Shown here: positions 9,649-21,541 of the stretch, piece by piece
How the letters are laid out: every line of letters starts with the position of its first letter
Numbering within the stretch: position 1 is the first letter of the stretch
Virus record (IMG/VR): IMGVR_UViG_3300025630_000069
Span: 1 to 21,581 of that record
Reading direction: 5' to 3' (one strand)
DNA length: 21,581 bases
From: a virus
Notes under the pieces: generated by a model
Seen by the model: the letters and a program-made list of their open reading frames with translations, nothing else
Databases searched by the model: none
Told to the model about the DNA's origin: nothing
Translations under genes and position numbers: made by a program

Positions 9649-11376
9649 CTATCTGAAAGCGGCTGCGAATTGTCCGCCGCGTCGCCGAGAATCTAAAACA
9701 GCCGCCTTTGTCTGCTCTTTAATTTGTGGAAGCAGTGACATGATTTCAGCGCGCACTGTTTGCGAGACTCCGGTCTCGATCTGGATCGTCTGGTTCACGA
9801 TTGTTGTCTGTCCGCCGCCTTGCCCAGACAATGCCTCGTTGCGAACGATTGTGCCAGACGCGCCGGGAACAAACAATTCCGGTCCTTTTTCGCCGACCAT
9901 GTATGGGCTATTTCGAGACACGCTGCCGCCGACCGCGCGTCCACGAGGAAGTTGCCATATAGGCCCTGCACCCGGACTTCCGCCACCGCCGAAGCCGCCA
10001 AACACGCTGCCCATCGCGCTGCCAAGAAGACCACTCAAAGGACCAGTTATGCTTTGCCTGATTTGCATTCGGATCAGATCATTGATGATCGAAAGCGCCA
10101 TTGATTTGAAGGCGTCCTTTGCGCTCGTGGTCCCGTTCACGACGCCCAGCAAGGCATCTTCCAAGTTTTGCATCGCCGACACACCAATGTCTTGCAATGA
10201 GGAGAACGTGTCGCGCGCAGCATCTCCATATTCTTGAAGTGCCGTTTTAGCGGCTTCATATTGCGGTGGAATCTCTGCTCCAAGAATTCCAGCGCCAGCA
10301 ATCAGGCGATCATTTTCTTCAATGATCCGCTCCATTTCGTCCGACACTTCTCGCAAGGCGGGTGGGAACTCGCCGATCAACATCCCGCCGGTAAGTTCGT
10401 CGTTTAAGCGGATATAACTCTCCGAAAGACGATCCACCTGATCTGTTGCTTTCTCAATGGCAGGAGCCACAACGTTGTTCACTTGCTCCGTCCAAACCAA
10501 CAGACCCGCGCCGCTTTCTTCAGTTGCGTCTTTCAAAGAGAAAAGAGAATCAGACATGGTTTTTGTGTAATCTGCCGCAGATTGCAAAGACTTCGTATTA
10601 AGCCCCAATGCTTCGCCCAGCTTTGCCCAGAACGACAAACCTTCAGAAATTTTCTCACTTACGAGGGACACGGCATTTACCAAGCCGTCAACCAGCACTG
10701 GCAAGACTTCTGCGGAGATTTGTTGTGTCAGGCTTGAAAGCGCAGTCCCTAAAGCTGAGAGATTGTCATTTGCCTGTTGCACGGCTGCTGTTTGCCGTTC
10801 TGTCAACTCAATCGTCAAATCTTCAAACTTCTGGCGCATATGATCGACGCCATCAGAACCAGCCATGAGCATATTTGTCAGCTTTTCGCCAGACCTGCCA
10901 AACAACTCGAATGCGACACGGACACGTTCCGCTGGGCTTTCAATGTTGTTGAAGTTTTGCAACACCTCTTCAAGAAGCTGGTTGATGCCCTTGAGATTGC
11001 CGTCCTGATCTTTTACGGATATGCCAAGCGTATCAAATGCTCTTTGTGCAGTCGCCAGTCCGACGTTCGCCTCAGAAATTGTGCGCGCGAACCGCTGCAT
11101 ACCCTTGTCGAGTTCTTGTGTAGATGCACCCGATAGCTGCGCCGCATATCGCAGTGACTGCAACTCGTTTGCGGTAAAGCCTATGCGTGCCGCCGTCTTT
11201 GCAAGGTTGTCAATGCTTTGCCCAATGCGAAAGATTGCAGCGACGACTAGGCCAGCGGAGGCGACGACCGCAATAAACGCACCCTTCATTGATTTGAGGC
11301 GACTGCCTAAGTTGTTGAACGCTTGCCGCGTCTTGTCGATGGCAGTGATTTTAATCTGAAGATTTTCAGTTGCCAT
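9649..11376 (-). CDS. Tail tape measure protein
   Basis: The product is 575 residues. The N-terminal part contains long helical stretches (FNNLGSRLKSMKGAF), a membrane-like segment (AFIAVVASAGLVVAAIFRIG, about 33-52) and the tape-measure motif AKTAARIGFTANELQSLRYA. Near the C-terminus is the common end of lambda-family tape measure proteins: a Gly-rich linker (GSVFGGFGGGGSPGAG), then RAVGGSVSRNSPYMVGEKGP and ELFVPGASGTIV. Such proteins thread the tail lumen, set its length and reach the cell membrane during DNA entry. From the usual rule of about 0.15 nm per residue, the tail would be about 85 nm; this is an estimate. The start overlaps the end of the frameshifted gpGT frame by 11 bases. Confidence 0.92.
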   Translation of the reverse strand: MATENLQIKITAIDKTRQAFNNLGSRLKSMKGAFIAVVASAGLVVAAIFRIGQSIDNLAKTAARIGFTANELQSLRYAAQLSGASTQELDKGMQRFARTISEANVGLATAQRAFDTLGISVKDQDGNLKGINQLLEEVLQNFNNIESPAERVRVAFELFGRSGEKLTNMLMAGSDGVDHMRQKFEDLTIELTERQTAAVQQANDNLSALGTALSSLTQQISAEVLPVLVDGLVNAVSLVSEKISEGLSFWAKLGEALGLNTKSLQSAADYTKTMSDSLFSLKDATEESGAGLLVWTEQVNNVVAPAIEKATDQVDRLSESYIRLNDELTGGMLIGEFPPALREVSDEMERIIEENDRLIAGAGILGAEIPPQYEAAKTALQEYGDAARDTFSSLQDIGVSAMQNLEDALLGVVNGTTSAKDAFKSMALSIINDLIRMQIRQSITGPLSGLLGSAMGSVFGGFGGGGSPGAGPIWQLPRGRAVGGSVSRNSPYMVGEKGPELFVPGASGTIVRNEALSGQGGGQTTIVNQTIQIETGVSQTVRAEIMSLLPQIKEQTKAAVLDSRRRGGQFAAAFR

Positions 11377-11850
11377 CTTTTGTCACCTTAAAATAGGCCA
11401 TCCATTCGTGAAACTCTTCTAATGTGAGTTCCTCAATTTCAGCCTGTGTCTTATGAAGCCGATCCGCTAACGCCAAAAGATTCAAGCGGAACGGATCGCG
11501 CCTCAGTTTTTTTCAATTTCCTCGATGCTCTCTGGCTCGCCAAACATTTCACCAGCGACTTCGGAGATCACCGTGAGGCTTTCCCGCATCAGGATCGGAC
11601 GATCCTCCAACGTAAACGCCTTGTCACCTTCTGCCGTCTCTGCCTTGAGGATGATGAGATCAACCATCGCGGCCACAGACATATTGCTCAGAAAGTCTTT
11701 GTGCTTCTTCTGTATGCGGTCGATATCGCCAGCCGTAAGTGCAGAGGCGTAAATGACCGCTGGCTCAGACCCGTCGCCCCAAGCCTCGACAGTGATTTTC
11801 GTGCGAGGCTTGGAGCGGTTGCGCCTGATGTTCTCAGAGATTGTGGACAT
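11366..11850 (-). CDS. Frameshifted tail assembly chaperone gpGT (161 residues)
   Basis: Read through the -1 frameshift at A AAA AAC (11506-11512), the gpG-like protein gains a 46-residue tail. It starts LRRDPFRLNLLALADRLHKT and continues QAEIEELTLEEFHEWMAYFK before stopping at TGA 11366-11368. That tail carries the gpT-like signature of lambda-type tail chaperones: a basic start, the LADRLxKTxAEIE helix and the EFxEWxAYF motif. In lambda, gpG and gpGT bind the tape measure protein and tube subunits, and the fusion is made by a programmed slip in a few per cent of ribosomes. The frameshift and the recognisable downstream peptide are both visible in the sequence. The slip rate is not known. 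Confidence 0.85.
11503..11850 (-). CDS. gpG-like tail assembly chaperone
   Basis: The product is 115 residues. It is rich in charged residues, with likely helices (SALTAGDIDRIQKKHKDFLS, VAAMVDLIILKAE) and an acidic C-terminus (FGEPESIEEIEKN). Position between the tail tube gene and the tape measure gene, size, and the slippery site at its end all match gpG of lambda-type tails. The zero-frame product stops at TGA 11503-11505, directly after the slippery heptamer. The gene begins six bases after the tail tube stop, with only a weak ribosome binding site, so it may depend on coupling to the tail tube gene. I infer a chaperone role that keeps the tape measure protein soluble during tail assembly. 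Confidence 0.85.
   Translation of the reverse strand: MSTISENIRRNRSKPRTKITVEAWGDGSEPAVIYASALTAGDIDRIQKKHKDFLSNMSVAAMVDLIILKAETAEGDKAFTLEDRPILMRESLTVISEVAGEMFGEPESIEEIEKN
11506..11512 (-). other. A AAA AAC slippery site for -1 frameshift
   Basis: On the minus strand the run reads G, seven A, then CTGAGG. In the zero frame the codons are GAA AAA AAC TGA, so A AAA AAC fits the X XXY YYZ rule. A slip of one base back puts the ribosome on CTG AGG CGC and opens a 46-codon frame that encodes a gpT-like tail. The stop codon follows the heptamer directly, which commonly favours slippage by pausing. Confidence 0.85.
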
Positions 11851-11856
11851 TTTCTA

Positions 11857-12246
11857 TTAGACCGTGGTTTCCGTAAGTGCGCCGGTTCCCTGCACGCTGA
11901 AGCTGGCCTCGACCATGCCATCAAACGAAGAGGAAACAGACTTGCCTGTGACGATTGCCGTGCCGGTGTAGTAGGTGTCAGCAGAAGCGTCGCCTTCCGG
12001 GTACAAATTGAGCGTCACGGAAGAACCAACATCGAGAGCGCCCTGCCCGCTGGTGTCGGTCTCATCCCAGAACACGTCAACGCTGCCGCTCCAACTTGTG
12101 AGGCTGGGCAGGTAGGTGCGCGCACTGTCGCCCATGCTCGTGTCTTCAAGCGTGTCGGCGGTTTCTTCAATCGAGAAAGAGCGGATTTCGGCGACTGCGT
12201 TAGAGCCGACCTTAACCGTTCCTTCAGAGCCCTTGTGATTCGCCAT
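11857..12246 (-). CDS. Major tail tube protein
   Basis: The product is 129 residues from ATG 12246; a TTG six bases earlier is less likely. AAGGAG lies seven bases upstream of the ATG, the strongest ribosome binding site in this block, as expected for a protein made in many copies. The start MANHKGSEGTVKVGSNAVAE, followed by SFSIEETADTLEDTSMGDSA and later GSVTLNLYPEG-like and TGTAIVTGKS stretches, is the beta-rich pattern of tail tube proteins of the gpV/TP901-1 type. The subunits stack as hexameric rings to form the tail shaft. Its place between the terminator-like gene and the gpG-like gene agrees. Confidence 0.87.
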   Translation of the reverse strand: MANHKGSEGTVKVGSNAVAEIRSFSIEETADTLEDTSMGDSARTYLPSLTSWSGSVDVFWDETDTSGQGALDVGSSVTLNLYPEGDASADTYYTGTAIVTGKSVSSSFDGMVEASFSVQGTGALTETTV

Positions 12247-12391
12247 CGTCAATCTCCTTCGCGGCTATCTTCTTGGGTTGCTTTTTAGGTTTAGCATCGG
12301 CCCGACGCCATCCCTTACGCTCGAAATTCTCAACCTTATAGTCGAGAACGTCGATCTCTGTGTCGCCAGAAGGCGAAATCATCTTCGTCAT
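12224..12391 (-). CDS. 55-residue basic protein overlapping the tail tube gene
   Basis: ATG 12391 overlaps the upstream stop as ATGA and has GGAG eight bases upstream. The frame ends at TGA 12224-12226, inside the start of the tail tube gene in another frame. The peptide begins MTKMISPSGDTEIDVLDYKV and ends in a Lys-rich stretch (KPKKQPKKIAAKEIDDGESQ). The segment VENFERKGWRRADAK recalls small phage proteins next to tail tube genes, but I recognise no function. The Shine-Dalgarno of the tail tube gene lies within this frame, so translation of the two is likely coupled. It is a real gene by spacing and start signals, with a function that is not known. Confidence 0.72.
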   Translation of the reverse strand: MTKMISPSGDTEIDVLDYKVENFERKGWRRADAKPKKQPKKIAAKEIDDGESQGL

Positions 12392-13415: not shown

Positions 13416-14729
13416 TTAAGCGGTGCTTACTTCGTCCGTCTTGGCGAAGGAAACAGCGTTACGCAGGGCCACATCGACATCCTGATGGATGATGATGCGA
13501 ACCGTACCAGCCAGACCGCCGGTCGTCTCGTCAATCAGGATCGACGGAGCGCCGAACAGGCCAACGATCAACTGCGAGAAGTCGCCGAAGATCAGAGCCG
13601 AAGCGTCGGAGCCGCCATCACCCGGATCGAGATCAGACGGAACGTTGCTGGTGAACTCAGCGCGGTAGCCATACAGGCTGTTCCACGGATCGTTCATCAG
13701 CATCACGCTGTCGGTCGAGCCAACGCGGGCGGTGTTCGCCAGCTTCGCCTTGACCTTCGGGTTCGACAGCCAGCCCAGCGCGTTCTGATTGATGACGCCA
13801 TTGGCATCTTCAACCGTCTTCACGATGTTGGTGATGTCGGCCCAAGTCAGCGCATCAACGTCGGTGCCAGCGGAAATGTCCACGTTACCAACGCTGCCGT
13901 CGTTCAGGATGCCGGTCGGCTGACCAGAGGAACCCGAACCTTGGATCGCGTAATACTCGATCTTGTCGGCTACGGAACGAAGCAGATCGTCCTGCACCAC
14001 CTGATCGATTGCCGGAACCGATTCCTTCATCAGCAGGCGGCTGATGTCGGCATAGGCACCCAGCGTGCGCGGCTGGAGCGTCACAGCGCCATCGGTCGGC
14101 GACTGATCGGCAACATTGCCCAGTTCCTCAACGAAGCCAGCAGCGGCACCCGTTGCGATCTTCGGCATCTTGATGCGATTGGTAAGGCCACCCATGAAGG
14201 TGACACCAAGCGCGGCCATGACCTGCTTCGCGCGCAGCGCCTCGATGAACATGTCACCGCGATGCACTGTCGGAACGAAGTTGTCGGTGACGTTTTCGGA
14301 GCCAGAAGCGCCGGTCGCCGCCGTGGACATGGGGCCAGCACGGAAAGCAAAGTCAGGCACATAAACGCCTTCGCACTGCTTGCCGGTGCGGCGTGCGATT
14401 TCGTCGTGAATTTCACGCTCGAAACCAGCCTCGCGCCAGTCACCGCTCATCTGCGCGCGGATCATTTTGCCAAGGCTATATTCGCGCTGCTCTTTAACAG
14501 GCGCGTCAACGACGTGAGCCGGAGTGTCGAGCGGCTCGTTGCCAATGGCCTCAAGCAGTTCGCCCCGGAACTCGTCGATGGAAAGGCCACGACCAAGGGC
14601 GTCTTCGCCCATGTCAGCCTTGTTGTGTTTGCGCGCGAGGATCATAATCTCCTTCGCATTGCGCTGTACGGTCTTGGCAGCATCAGCAGCAGCTTCGGCC
14701 CGCACCTCGTCCAGATTAATGTCAGACAT
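13416..14729 (-). CDS. Major capsid protein from internal start
   Basis: Codon 426 of the long protease-capsid frame is ATG 14729, preceded eight bases upstream by a perfect AAGGAG. Translation from there gives a 437-residue protein that begins MSDINLDEVRAEAAADAAKT, which is helical and charged as in the delta scaffold domain of HK97-type capsids. It then shows HK97-fold features: FVPTVHRGDMFIEALRAKQV, VTFMGGLTNRIKMPKI, FVEELGNVADQSPTDGAVTL, RTLGAYADISRLLMKES, GSGSSGQPTGILN and WNSLYGYRAEFTSNVPSD. The shell needs hundreds of copies, and the internal site explains how. I infer cleavage of the N-terminal part near residue 125-135. Confidence 0.85.
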   Translation of the reverse strand: MSDINLDEVRAEAAADAAKTVQRNAKEIMILARKHNKADMGEDALGRGLSIDEFRGELLEAIGNEPLDTPAHVVDAPVKEQREYSLGKMIRAQMSGDWREAGFEREIHDEIARRTGKQCEGVYVPDFAFRAGPMSTAATGASGSENVTDNFVPTVHRGDMFIEALRAKQVMAALGVTFMGGLTNRIKMPKIATGAAAGFVEELGNVADQSPTDGAVTLQPRTLGAYADISRLLMKESVPAIDQVVQDDLLRSVADKIEYYAIQGSGSSGQPTGILNDGSVGNVDISAGTDVDALTWADITNIVKTVEDANGVINQNALGWLSNPKVKAKLANTARVGSTDSVMLMNDPWNSLYGYRAEFTSNVPSDLDPGDGGSDASALIFGDFSQLIVGLFGAPSILIDETTGGLAGTVRIIIHQDVDVALRNAVSFAKTDEVSTA

Positions 14730-16004
14730 TAGATCATCTCCTTCAGTCTTGACGGTTGCACAAAGGTTTTCGGGATTCGAGCGTCCGACACCGACAAGAC
14801 TTGACTGGTCTGCCGGAATAGAAACTATCGAAATCTCCATTGGAGTTGTTCGCACCCGATAATACTCTTCAGGATCGTTCTTCTCCTCAACGCGGCCATC
14901 AATGCGATAGCCCACGCTGATATTCTGGCGGATACCGTCCACCACGTCTGTGAACACTTCCGAAGCCAGCGCGCCTTTTCCAAAGCGCACAATAGCGCGG
15001 AGACGCCGCGCACCTTCATCCAGTTCAACAGATTCCACGACGCCGATCTGCCGCTCCATGTCGTGATCGAGCAGGAGCGGAGCGCGTCCACTATTCAAAA
15101 AATCAAGGTTCATGCTGCCAGCGCGATGATCGATGACCTCCATGCCGAATTCCCGCTTCACAGGCTCTTCGCTGGAGACGCCGACGCGCACGACACGCTT
15201 CTCTTCGTCAATAACCTTGTCACCGTTCATGTCGAAAGCGCGCATCTGCATGTCTGAGCGATCGAAACGCTCCTCTGCGGCGACCTCCTCGACAGCCTCT
15301 TCGTGATGCTTGGCGAAGGTGACGGTCACATTCTCGTCATCTTCTTGCACATCGACAACGTGCCGCTGTTCCATTTCGTCCATGCCAGCCTCTCTTTCGC
15401 CAGTGGCTTCTTCAAACTCAATCGGCTCGAACTCATGTTCTTCGAGCCACGCACGCGCTTCAGCAGCAGAATAGCGATCTGCGTCGAAACGAACAGCCTG
15501 TAATTCGCTTTCGCCATCCATGATACCATAGATGAAATCGATGCCGGGACCGCCTGCGTCTGCTTCACGCGCAAATTCGTCATATTTCGCAGGATCGCTG
15601 ATGCGCGCAGCGTGTTCATTAGGATATGGACGCTTCTCTTCGTCGTGCCACGCACGCTCTTCGTCAATGCGATCCATCTGCGCGTCTTTCGCGTTAGCCC
15701 AAGACTGTCCAGCGTCGCCACCCCAAAGCGCCCAAGCAATTCGACCTGCGCTTGGGTAGCCATCTTCGCCGGGAGAAAATCCCTCGCCCTGCTTGTCAAC
15801 TTCGTGTCGCGCGAAATACGAAACCATGCGCCGCACTGTGTCAGGCGATAACTCTTGCCGATTTTTTAACTGCCGCGCACGCGCTACGCCGACAGCCGTG
15901 CCGCCGCGCCCAAATTCTTCGCGCCAAGCAAGCCCACGCTCCGCCTCTTCGGCCATCGATGCGGTCGGCTTGAGATCGATGTCTTCGCCTTTATACCTCG
16001 CCAT
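13416..16004 (-). CDS. Fused accessory domain, HK97-type prohead protease and capsid protein
   Basis: This is one open frame of 862 residues. Residues 20-105 carry a domain seen in various phage head proteins (VGVARARQLKNRQELSPDTV, then GEGFSPGEDGYPSAGRIAWA). Residues 141-200 hold a YDEFAREAD and AEARAWLEEHEFEPIEFEEA segment often found before proteases. Residues 250-410 are an HK97-type prohead protease, with LLLDHD (His 314), NISVGY (Ser 363) and TTPMEISIV (Glu 390) as likely catalytic residues. The rest is the capsid protein. The start overlaps the portal stop by 14 bases; GGGAG precedes ATG 16004. A full-length fusion would deliver the protease into the prohead, while an internal start supplies most capsid protein. 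Confidence 0.85.
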   Translation of the reverse strand: MARYKGEDIDLKPTASMAEEAERGLAWREEFGRGGTAVGVARARQLKNRQELSPDTVRRMVSYFARHEVDKQGEGFSPGEDGYPSAGRIAWALWGGDAGQSWANAKDAQMDRIDEERAWHDEEKRPYPNEHAARISDPAKYDEFAREADAGGPGIDFIYGIMDGESELQAVRFDADRYSAAEARAWLEEHEFEPIEFEEATGEREAGMDEMEQRHVVDVQEDDENVTVTFAKHHEEAVEEVAAEERFDRSDMQMRAFDMNGDKVIDEEKRVVRVGVSSEEPVKREFGMEVIDHRAGSMNLDFLNSGRAPLLLDHDMERQIGVVESVELDEGARRLRAIVRFGKGALASEVFTDVVDGIRQNISVGYRIDGRVEEKNDPEEYYRVRTTPMEISIVSIPADQSSLVGVGRSNPENLCATVKTEGDDLMSDINLDEVRAEAAADAAKTVQRNAKEIMILARKHNKADMGEDALGRGLSIDEFRGELLEAIGNEPLDTPAHVVDAPVKEQREYSLGKMIRAQMSGDWREAGFEREIHDEIARRTGKQCEGVYVPDFAFRAGPMSTAATGASGSENVTDNFVPTVHRGDMFIEALRAKQVMAALGVTFMGGLTNRIKMPKIATGAAAGFVEELGNVADQSPTDGAVTLQPRTLGAYADISRLLMKESVPAIDQVVQDDLLRSVADKIEYYAIQGSGSSGQPTGILNDGSVGNVDISAGTDVDALTWADITNIVKTVEDANGVINQNALGWLSNPKVKAKLANTARVGSTDSVMLMNDPWNSLYGYRAEFTSNVPSDLDPGDGGSDASALIFGDFSQLIVGLFGAPSILIDETTGGLAGTVRIIIHQDVDVALRNAVSFAKTDEVSTA
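14738..14743 (-). promoter_or_regulatory. Internal ribosome binding site for the capsid protein
   Basis: The minus strand reads AAGGAG, then eight bases, then ATG 14729 in frame with the larger protease-capsid gene. It is a full match to the anti-Shine-Dalgarno core, and is stronger than the site at the start of the fusion (GGGAG, three bases before ATG 16004). This decides an internal capsid start. Confidence 0.85.
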
Positions 16005-19877: not shown

Positions 19878-20349
19878 CAGATTCGCTTTCCTCTTCTATC
19901 CATCGTGCAATCTCATCCAGCGCCTCAACAATTTGCTCCTCGATGAGCCGCTTGCAAATTGCAGGACTTTCTTCGACCGCAACAACTGGCGCAAGTTTGG
20001 CCGGCATCGACAGCATCTTGGTGCGACACGCCGAAACCATGTCCAGCCAAGTGTCCACGATCTCAGTCATTGGCACAAGTTGCTCTTTCTTTTCGAGCAG
20101 TTCTAATTCAGCCAATTCCGCTTCAGCCGCCGTCTTGCGTGCGCGCACTTCGTCAAAGCTAATCACGCCGGGATTGATGCTGCGCTCTTTCAGATAGGCA
20201 ATATAACCGCGCACCGCTGGGACAAGCTCATATCGCCCGCGCTCCGCCTTGGGTATCACGCCCTCTTTCGATAACTGCTGCACGCGGCGAGGCGTTAGAT
20301 CAAGCAGCTTCGATATAGTATCGAGCGAATGTGTTGCAGTTTTAGGCAT
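19795..20349 (-). CDS. Terminase small subunit, Nu1-like
   Basis: The product is 184 residues from ATG 20349; a TTG just before it is less likely. The N-terminal part (LDTISKLLDLTPRRVQQLSK and IPKAERGRYELVPAVRGYIA) is the winged helix-turn-helix of Nu1-like packaging proteins. A central helical region (FDEVRARKTAAEAELAELEL, LEKKEQLVPMTEIVDTWLDM) fits the coiled assembly domain. The C-terminus is acidic and Ser-rich (IEEESESDESDADSEISSST) and is encoded in the region shared with the start of the large terminase gene. It recognises the packaging site and recruits the large subunit. It overlaps the upstream methyltransferase gene by eight bases. Confidence 0.88.
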   Translation of the reverse strand: MPKTATHSLDTISKLLDLTPRRVQQLSKEGVIPKAERGRYELVPAVRGYIAYLKERSINPGVISFDEVRARKTAAEAELAELELLEKKEQLVPMTEIVDTWLDMVSACRTKMLSMPAKLAPVVAVEESPAICKRLIEEQIVEALDEIARWIEEESESDESDADSEISSSTSVEAAADTNGEPVG

Positions 20350-21541
20350 CAAACTCTTTCCCGGTTTCAGCGTGAACGGCTTTCTTGCCTGTGAATTCCT
20401 GCCACCGCTTTACGATCACGTCGCAGTATTTGGGGTCGAGTTCCATGAGGCGAGAATGGCGACCGTTCTTCTCTGCGGCTATCATTGTGGTGCCGGAGCC
20501 GCCGAAAATGTCCAAGACAATCCCACCTGAGTTGGATGCGTGACCGATTGCGTTCTCGACCAACTCGACTGGCTTCATTGTGGGATGAAGATGAGATGAT
20601 TTCGGCCTTGGGAAATCCCAAACATTTGTTAGCTTTCTGTCGTCAATAAAAGACGAGCCGCTCTTGTGCCATCCAAACCAGCACGGCTCGTATTTATTCT
20701 GATATTTGCCTCGCCCTAAAGTGAATTGATCTTTATTCCACACAATCGTGGTGGAGCAGTGCATTGCTTTATCAAGGACAGAGAACATAATCCTGCCGTC
20801 TGGCCCCGGATGCCCGAAAACATAAACGCAGCCATCACACATTGCGACCAAAACAGAAACAAACGATGAGCAAAAATCTGCAAACTGATCGAGGCTCATA
20901 TTGTCATTCTCGATCGACCTTTGCTTAAACTTCGGATGCTTTATGTTTCCATAGTCGATGTTATAGGGTGGGTCGGTAAACACCATGTCAGCCTTGCGCC
21001 CATCCATCAGCTTCTCAACCGCATCGATGCTGGTCGAGTCCCCGCACATCAGCCGGTGATTTCCAAGCACCCAGATGTCACCTTCGACCGTGACAGGCGT
21101 TTCCGGCACTTCTGGCACCGCATCTTCGTCGGTCAGCCCTTCGGTTTCTTCGGCAAGAAGCGCGGCAAGTTCGTCGTCGCTGAATCCGGTCAGGTCGAGA
21201 TCGTATTCCTCGCCAAGCAAATCTTGCAATTCCAGCGTCAGCAGATCGTGATCCCACTCTGCTTCTTGGCTCACGCGGTTGTCCGCGAGGCGATACGCCT
21301 TGACCTGCGCCGGGGTTAAATCTTCCGCGACAACGATTGGCACCTTGTCCATTCCAAGCGACTGCGCCGCCGCGAGTCGAGTGTGTCCCGCGATCACTAC
21401 CATTTCGCTATCAACGACGATGGGTTGTTGCCACCCAAACTCCTTAATCGATGCCGCGACTTTGCTTATAGCCGCCTGATTTTGCCGGGGATTGCGAGCG
21501 TATGGGACCACCGTGTTGATTGCTACATTCTTGATTTTCAT
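20342..21541 (-). CDS. ParB-like / DNA adenine methyltransferase fusion
   Basis: The product is 399 residues. Residues 1-130 form a ParB/sulfiredoxin-like domain (NTVVPYARNPRQNQAAISKV, VVIAGHTRLAAAQSLGM). Residues 155-385 form an amino-methyltransferase: DMVFTDPPYNIDYG (DPPY at 190-193), HLHPTMKPVELVENAI (320-335), and LDIFGGSGTTMIAAEKNGRH (FGGSG at 346-350), with DPPY before FGGSG, the beta-class order of Dam-type and related N6-adenine or N4-cytosine enzymes. Such fusions are common in phages and may protect phage DNA or mark it. GGAGG lies 13 bases before the ATG, which is wide, while an ATGA overlap with a likely upstream gene may aid coupling. Target sequence unknown. Confidence 0.9.
   Translation of the reverse strand: MKIKNVAINTVVPYARNPRQNQAAISKVAASIKEFGWQQPIVVDSEMVVIAGHTRLAAAQSLGMDKVPIVVAEDLTPAQVKAYRLADNRVSQEAEWDHDLLTLELQDLLGEEYDLDLTGFSDDELAALLAEETEGLTDEDAVPEVPETPVTVEGDIWVLGNHRLMCGDSTSIDAVEKLMDGRKADMVFTDPPYNIDYGNIKHPKFKQRSIENDNMSLDQFADFCSSFVSVLVAMCDGCVYVFGHPGPDGRIMFSVLDKAMHCSTTIVWNKDQFTLGRGKYQNKYEPCWFGWHKSGSSFIDDRKLTNVWDFPRPKSSHLHPTMKPVELVENAIGHASNSGGIVLDIFGGSGTTMIAAEKNGRHSRLMELDPKYCDVIVKRWQEFTGKKAVHAETGKEFDA

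Follow-up and report, generated by a model that had tools for sequence, protein, structure and literature searches.

A probable lambda-type −1 frameshift at the end of a phage tail chaperone gene, with a covarying downstream stem-loop

Introduction

The locus examined here raises the question of whether a short gene between the tube and tape measure genes of a marine phage encodes one tail assembly chaperone or, through a shift in reading frame, two. The gene closes with ...GAA ATT GAA AAA AAC TGA and is part of a 21,581-base virus record, referred to at its full length as the window. In phage lambda, a heptamer of the form X_XXY_YYZ lies at the end of gene G, and the T frame ends at the start of the tape measure gene. 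The lambda gpG/gpGT pair is the product of a programmed −1 frameshift (Levin 1993; Xu 2004, 2013; reviewed in PMC5009743), and frameshifting at tail chaperone genes has been measured at 6–7% in other systems (PMC3711429). An earlier note made from the letters of the window had proposed the same kind of pair at this locus. Judged from sequence comparison, a lambda-type G/GT programmed −1 ribosomal frameshift is very probably what the locus encodes, and from this we infer slippage in vivo. By the comparative evidence the site is functional and ordinary in kind, a well-supported further example of a known mechanism.

The locus and its gene neighborhood

The structural genes of the window all lie on the minus strand, in the order portal, capsid with protease, head–tail connector, tail terminator, tube, G/T, tape measure, tail tip and fibers. 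Gene G (11503–11850, minus strand) is an open reading frame of 115 amino acids that starts at the ATG at 11850 and stops at the TGA at 11505–11503. It is adjoined upstream by the major tail (tube) protein gene (11857–12252, minus strand; PHROG 1407 major tail protein, E 9.9e-18) and downstream by the tape measure protein gene (9649–11376, minus strand), which matches Pfam Tape_meas_lam_C and PhageMin_Tail as well as PHROG tape measure families. A G-like frame is thus found between tube and tape measure genes in the lambda-like order.

Elsewhere in the window, a single 862-amino-acid protein (13416–16004, minus strand) combines an N terminus like PHROG 2859, whose function is unknown, with a serine protease and a major capsid domain. 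At 20342–21541 (minus strand), judging by the translation, a ParB-type N terminus appears to be fused to a DNA methyltransferase.

The assignment of G to the tail assembly chaperone family comes from its relatives and from its predicted fold. PHROG 344, "tail assembly chaperone," is matched by 26 of 34 G relatives; the G protein of the window itself had no PHROG 344 match in the PHROG search, a Pfam search with the G and T proteins of the window returned zero matches, and a PDB sequence search with G found no relative. Modeled with AlphaFold (pLDDT 88), G finds its best PDB match in the HK97 tail assembly chaperone 2ob9 (Foldseek probability 1.00, TM 0.51, E 0.028).

Sampling of relatives

Relatives were gathered by G protein similarity from viral contigs, phage records and genome contigs, using peptide patterns that spared the end of G and so did not cover the slippery site. 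After duplicate removal there were 79 distinct DNA contexts, that of the window among them. Beyond near-identical copies, the relatives are 29–66% identical in G by protein search. A scan by DNA pattern, which by its nature favors loci with the heptamer, was excluded from the heptamer counts, and the hairpin statistics were rerun without it. The G tree covers 63 proteins and is built on few columns, with many forks unresolved.

The genome-contig scan yielded only two loci. One G relative (L121), 53% identical, shares the heptamer and comes from a 582-kb Akkermansiaceae (Verrucomicrobiota) assembly contig, reflecting either a prophage or a binning error.

The slippery heptamer

The heptamer A AAA AAC occupies 11512–11506 on the minus strand, with the stop codon directly after it. 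The earlier note had given the zero-frame end as GAA AAA AAC TGA, which is exact for the frame from 11850 to 11503, and had left the strand unstated. Taken as a single sequence the argument is weak, because AAAAAAAC as a bare string occurs once in the window against 0.92 expected by chance and because open −1 frames of 46 codons are not rare, with comparably long ones following other genes of the window. What exceeds chance is the position of the heptamer together with its conservation. In-frame X_XXY_YYZ motifs occur at 20 per 6838 codons in the genes of the window, and one is found at the end of G in all 79 distinct relatives, every one of which has a homologous T in the −1 frame.

The heptamer is A AAA AAC in 58 of the 79, G GGA AAC in 10, A AAA AAT in 7 and A AAA AAG in 4. 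The A AAA AAC and A AAA AAT forms abut the stop codon, and G GGA AAC and A AAA AAG sit one codon earlier. On the G tree the heptamer switched at least three to four times, each time to another slippery heptamer, and the GGGAAAC clade (99/93) is nested among AAAAAAC relatives. The earlier note had counted against its own reading any relatives that break the heptamer yet keep a working tail. Since the altered heptamers are all slippery and the T frame is kept in 79 of 79, these changes speak in favor of the reading instead. The note had also presented the A-rich heptamer as a departure from lambda; A AAA AAC is indeed present, but it is not special, given that close relatives carry G GGA AAC or A AAA AAG and that Acinetobacter phage Loki has the identical string (PMC5313236).

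Codon usage around the site is also constrained. Among the 65 relatives with an AAAAAA-type heptamer, the lysine codon of the heptamer is always AAA, compared with 54% AAA elsewhere in G. The codon 5' of it is GAA in 64, and the A run is exactly seven long in 64. In E. coli, A_AAA_AAC, which also occurs in the haloarchaeal virus HCTV-2, slips far less readily than A_AAA_AAG (PMC5009743), and the rate at this site may therefore be low.

A further constraint, absent from the earlier note, lies upstream. The glutamate codon at 11523–11521 is GAG in 63 of the 65 AAAAAA-type relatives, against 149 of 585 glutamate codons (25%) elsewhere in G. The fixed GAG mostly precedes a codon starting with GA, giving a Shine-Dalgarno-like GAGGA (11519–11523, minus strand) 6 nt before the heptamer. 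Shine-Dalgarno-type stimulators of −1 sites are reported 9–14 nt upstream (PMC5009743), which places this GAGGA too close for a standard −1 stimulator of that kind.

The T extension

The −1 frame (11366–11512, minus strand, counted from the heptamer) reads KK-LRRDPFRLNLLALADRLHKTQAEIEELTLEEFHEWMAYFKVTKDGN*, with 46 codons after the heptamer and a stop at 11368–11366. The tape measure ATG is at 11376–11374, so that the end of T overlaps the start of the tape measure gene by 11 nt. The 46-codon length and the ending inside the tape measure start agree with what the earlier note had described, and both of the peptide patterns it had pointed out, LADRLxKTxAEIE and EFxEWxAYF, are present in the translation. 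Its gpG/gpGT reading gains support from the PHROG 344 and HK97 fold matches for G and from PHROG 337 for T.

The T extension is common to all relatives. PHROG 337, "tail protein," is matched by 27 of 30 T relatives, and Pfam PF06223 (Phage_tail_T, the lambda Minor tail protein T) weakly by 3 of 30, with a best E of 0.0044. In the part of T that lies 3' of the stem described below, a stretch closed to the zero frame, the median pN/pS is 0.21; the sequence comparison thus indicates that the T protein is under purifying selection.

The T half is an unannotated gap between G and the tape measure gene in the records of phages CRP-821, CRP-406 and CRP-811 (L036, L038 and L039, each at 2843–2980), and likewise in that of Pelagibacter phage HTVC026P (L037, 2789–2954). 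Frameshifting goes unmentioned in the paper that describes CRP-822-type phages (PMC12629253).

The downstream hairpin

The RNA 3' of the heptamer in the window is predicted to fold into a stem-loop of −26.6 kcal/mol, a feature that the earlier note had not included. The outer limits of this predicted pairing are 11454–11505 (minus strand), and the predicted core arms are 11498–11490 and 11468–11460. Across relatives the stem begins 3–7 nt past the heptamer.

In an alignment of 43 diverse relatives, a 17-pair stem has 87.4% of its cells paired and eight pairs changed on both sides, with 0 of 500 shuffles as high; shuffle counts ignore relatedness, so exact significance is not to be read from them, and the synonymous control is the stronger argument. 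This control was drawn to allow for protein conservation, as the coding sequence of T runs through the stem. An average of 14.7 of the 17 pairs form, against 9.9 ± 0.2 with synonymous codons (maximum 10.6 in 500), and the values are 14.68 against 9.93 for relatives found without the DNA pattern. When codons were exchanged only between sequences that agree in the amino acid at that position, 0 of 2000 shuffles reached the observed pairing. Within the stem CCG and GCG predominate: proline is CCG in 41 of 60 cases there versus 4 of 51 further along T, and alanine is GCG in 52 of 60 versus 66 of 314. A single alifold run gave a consensus of the 6-pair core only, owing to an inner stem whose register differs from one relative to the next. 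In the window itself 11 of the 17 pairs of the common register are formed, which 14% of synonymous versions equal; its own fold is unusual, with 7 of 2000 synonymous versions as stable. An Rfam search returned nothing credible. A pseudoknot between the loop and GAGG was considered by inspection and dropped, the loop of the window having no CCTC.

The clades differ in how strongly they fold. Against synonymous versions, the mean folding z score is −3.9 in the A AAA AAC group that has the LADR core, −3.7 in the G GGA AAC group, −2.4 in the A AAA AAG group and −0.45 in the clade of Roseobacter-phage type. A compact stem of another kind occupies about the same place in the A AAA AAG clade, and alifold runs on the GGGAAAC and Roseobacter clades yielded no persuasive common stem. 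These differences suggest that the putative stimulator has been exchanged or has disappeared in some clades, the slippery heptamer being retained. Taken over the relatives, the sequence evidence is that the RNA stem and the slippery site are kept by selection.

The Roseobacter-phage type clade (L013, L019, L025, L031, L036, L038 and L039) keeps A AAA AAC/T, with A AAA AAT in part of the clade, and has lost the hairpin. The hairpin is therefore not essential everywhere.

Alternative explanations

A longer product could be dispensed with altogether if T were a separate small gene, started at TTG, GTG or ATG and translationally coupled to the stop of G. The −1 frame of the window does have TTG at codons 9 and 12, and some start-type codon occurs early in T in many relatives, but its place is not conserved. 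No such codon lies within the first 14 T codons in 12 of the 79 relatives, and in five there is no ATG, GTG or TTG anywhere in the frame, so a separately started T cannot be the general route. It would also leave the conservation and the swaps of the heptamer unexplained, and conservation extends to the codons ahead of any start (L-[KR]-x-D-P-[FL]-R). A separate T gene is accordingly most improbable. Very little probability likewise attaches to transcriptional slippage, by which RNA polymerase would slip on the A run and yield mRNAs one base longer or shorter. The nearly constant run of seven makes a plausible site for it, but 14 of the 79 relatives carry G GGA AAC or A AAA AAG, with shorter runs, and keep the same T frame. 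Moreover, a nascent hairpin that promotes polymerase slippage sits before the site (PMC5009743), whereas the conserved hairpin here follows the run and is thus untranscribed while the polymerase is on it.

The role of the hairpin itself is a narrower matter. It might serve mRNA stability or coupling to the tape measure gene, leaving the frameshift to the heptamer alone, as an entire clade presumably does its frameshifting with no hairpin. This is unlikely, if less so than the other two alternatives, given that the stem occupies the position of 3' stimulators, that another stem is found at about that place in the AAAAAAG clade, and that folding in the GGGAAAC clade, too, is better than in its synonymous versions.

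A programmed ribosomal frameshift on the lambda model would proceed as follows. Most ribosomes would read G and terminate at the TGA, giving the chaperone gpG. A minority would pause at A AAA AAC, held by the stem-loop just 3' of it, and the tRNAs on AAA and AAC would re-pair one base back onto AAA AAA. Ribosomes that slipped would continue in the T frame to make gpGT. By analogy with lambda, gpG would coat the tape measure protein, the T part of gpGT would bring in the tail tube protein, and the slippery site would set the gpG:gpGT ratio.

Comparison with known systems

The locus resembles that of lambda in gene order, in a chaperone followed by a T domain in the −1 frame, in X_XXY_YYZ at the end of G and in the end of T at the tape measure start. 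It differs in having A AAA AAC rather than G GGA AAG, a stop codon directly after the heptamer and a covarying downstream stem-loop, and its proteins are too distant for the lambda G families of Pfam. In the description given for gp12/gp13 of Acinetobacter phage vB_AbaS_Loki, AAAAAAC likewise abuts the stop of the tail chaperone gene, and a frameshift into the next frame was inferred (PMC5313236). Loki belongs to another phage group, and the comparative and hairpin evidence described here concerns the present locus and its relatives.

Homologous G and T are found in Roseobacter phages CRP-821, CRP-822, CRP-823, CRP-831, CRP-811 and CRP-406 and in HTVC026P, and the records of CRP-821, CRP-406, CRP-811 and HTVC026P have A AAA AAC before the stop. 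The Roseobacter clade differs from the window in the absence of the hairpin, and HTVC026P is only 29% identical in G.

The E. coli dnaX cassette shares with this locus an A-rich heptamer, a simple stem-loop a few nucleotides 3' and a purine-rich, Shine-Dalgarno-like stretch 5'. The heptamer in dnaX is A AAA AAG with the Shine-Dalgarno sequence 10 nt upstream, and its frameshift product is shorter; here the product is longer. A selected stem-loop a few nucleotides downstream is present at this locus, as in a dnaX-type cassette, and GAGGA at 6 nt falls outside the 9–14 nt of the upstream element.

Implications

The covarying stem-loop after the heptamer is new here, and the hairpin and its differences between clades are the part worth following. 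It provides good comparative evidence for a 3' stimulator at a tail chaperone site. The catalogue of tail chaperone frameshifts also gains a group with isolates, the marine Roseobacter and Pelagibacter phages, and the T half proves to be unannotated in the four isolate records examined.

More broadly, the relatives may represent a large, mostly uncultured phage group that shares a complete three-part frameshift cassette: GAGGA upstream, an exchangeable heptamer where G stops, and, inside the T coding sequence, a hairpin that covaries. The existence of a clade without the hairpin suggests, tentatively and at somewhat less than an even chance for this wider picture, that gains and losses of stimulators tune the gpG:gpGT ratio. 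Relatives with swapped heptamers or no hairpin offer a natural test set for what determines that ratio.
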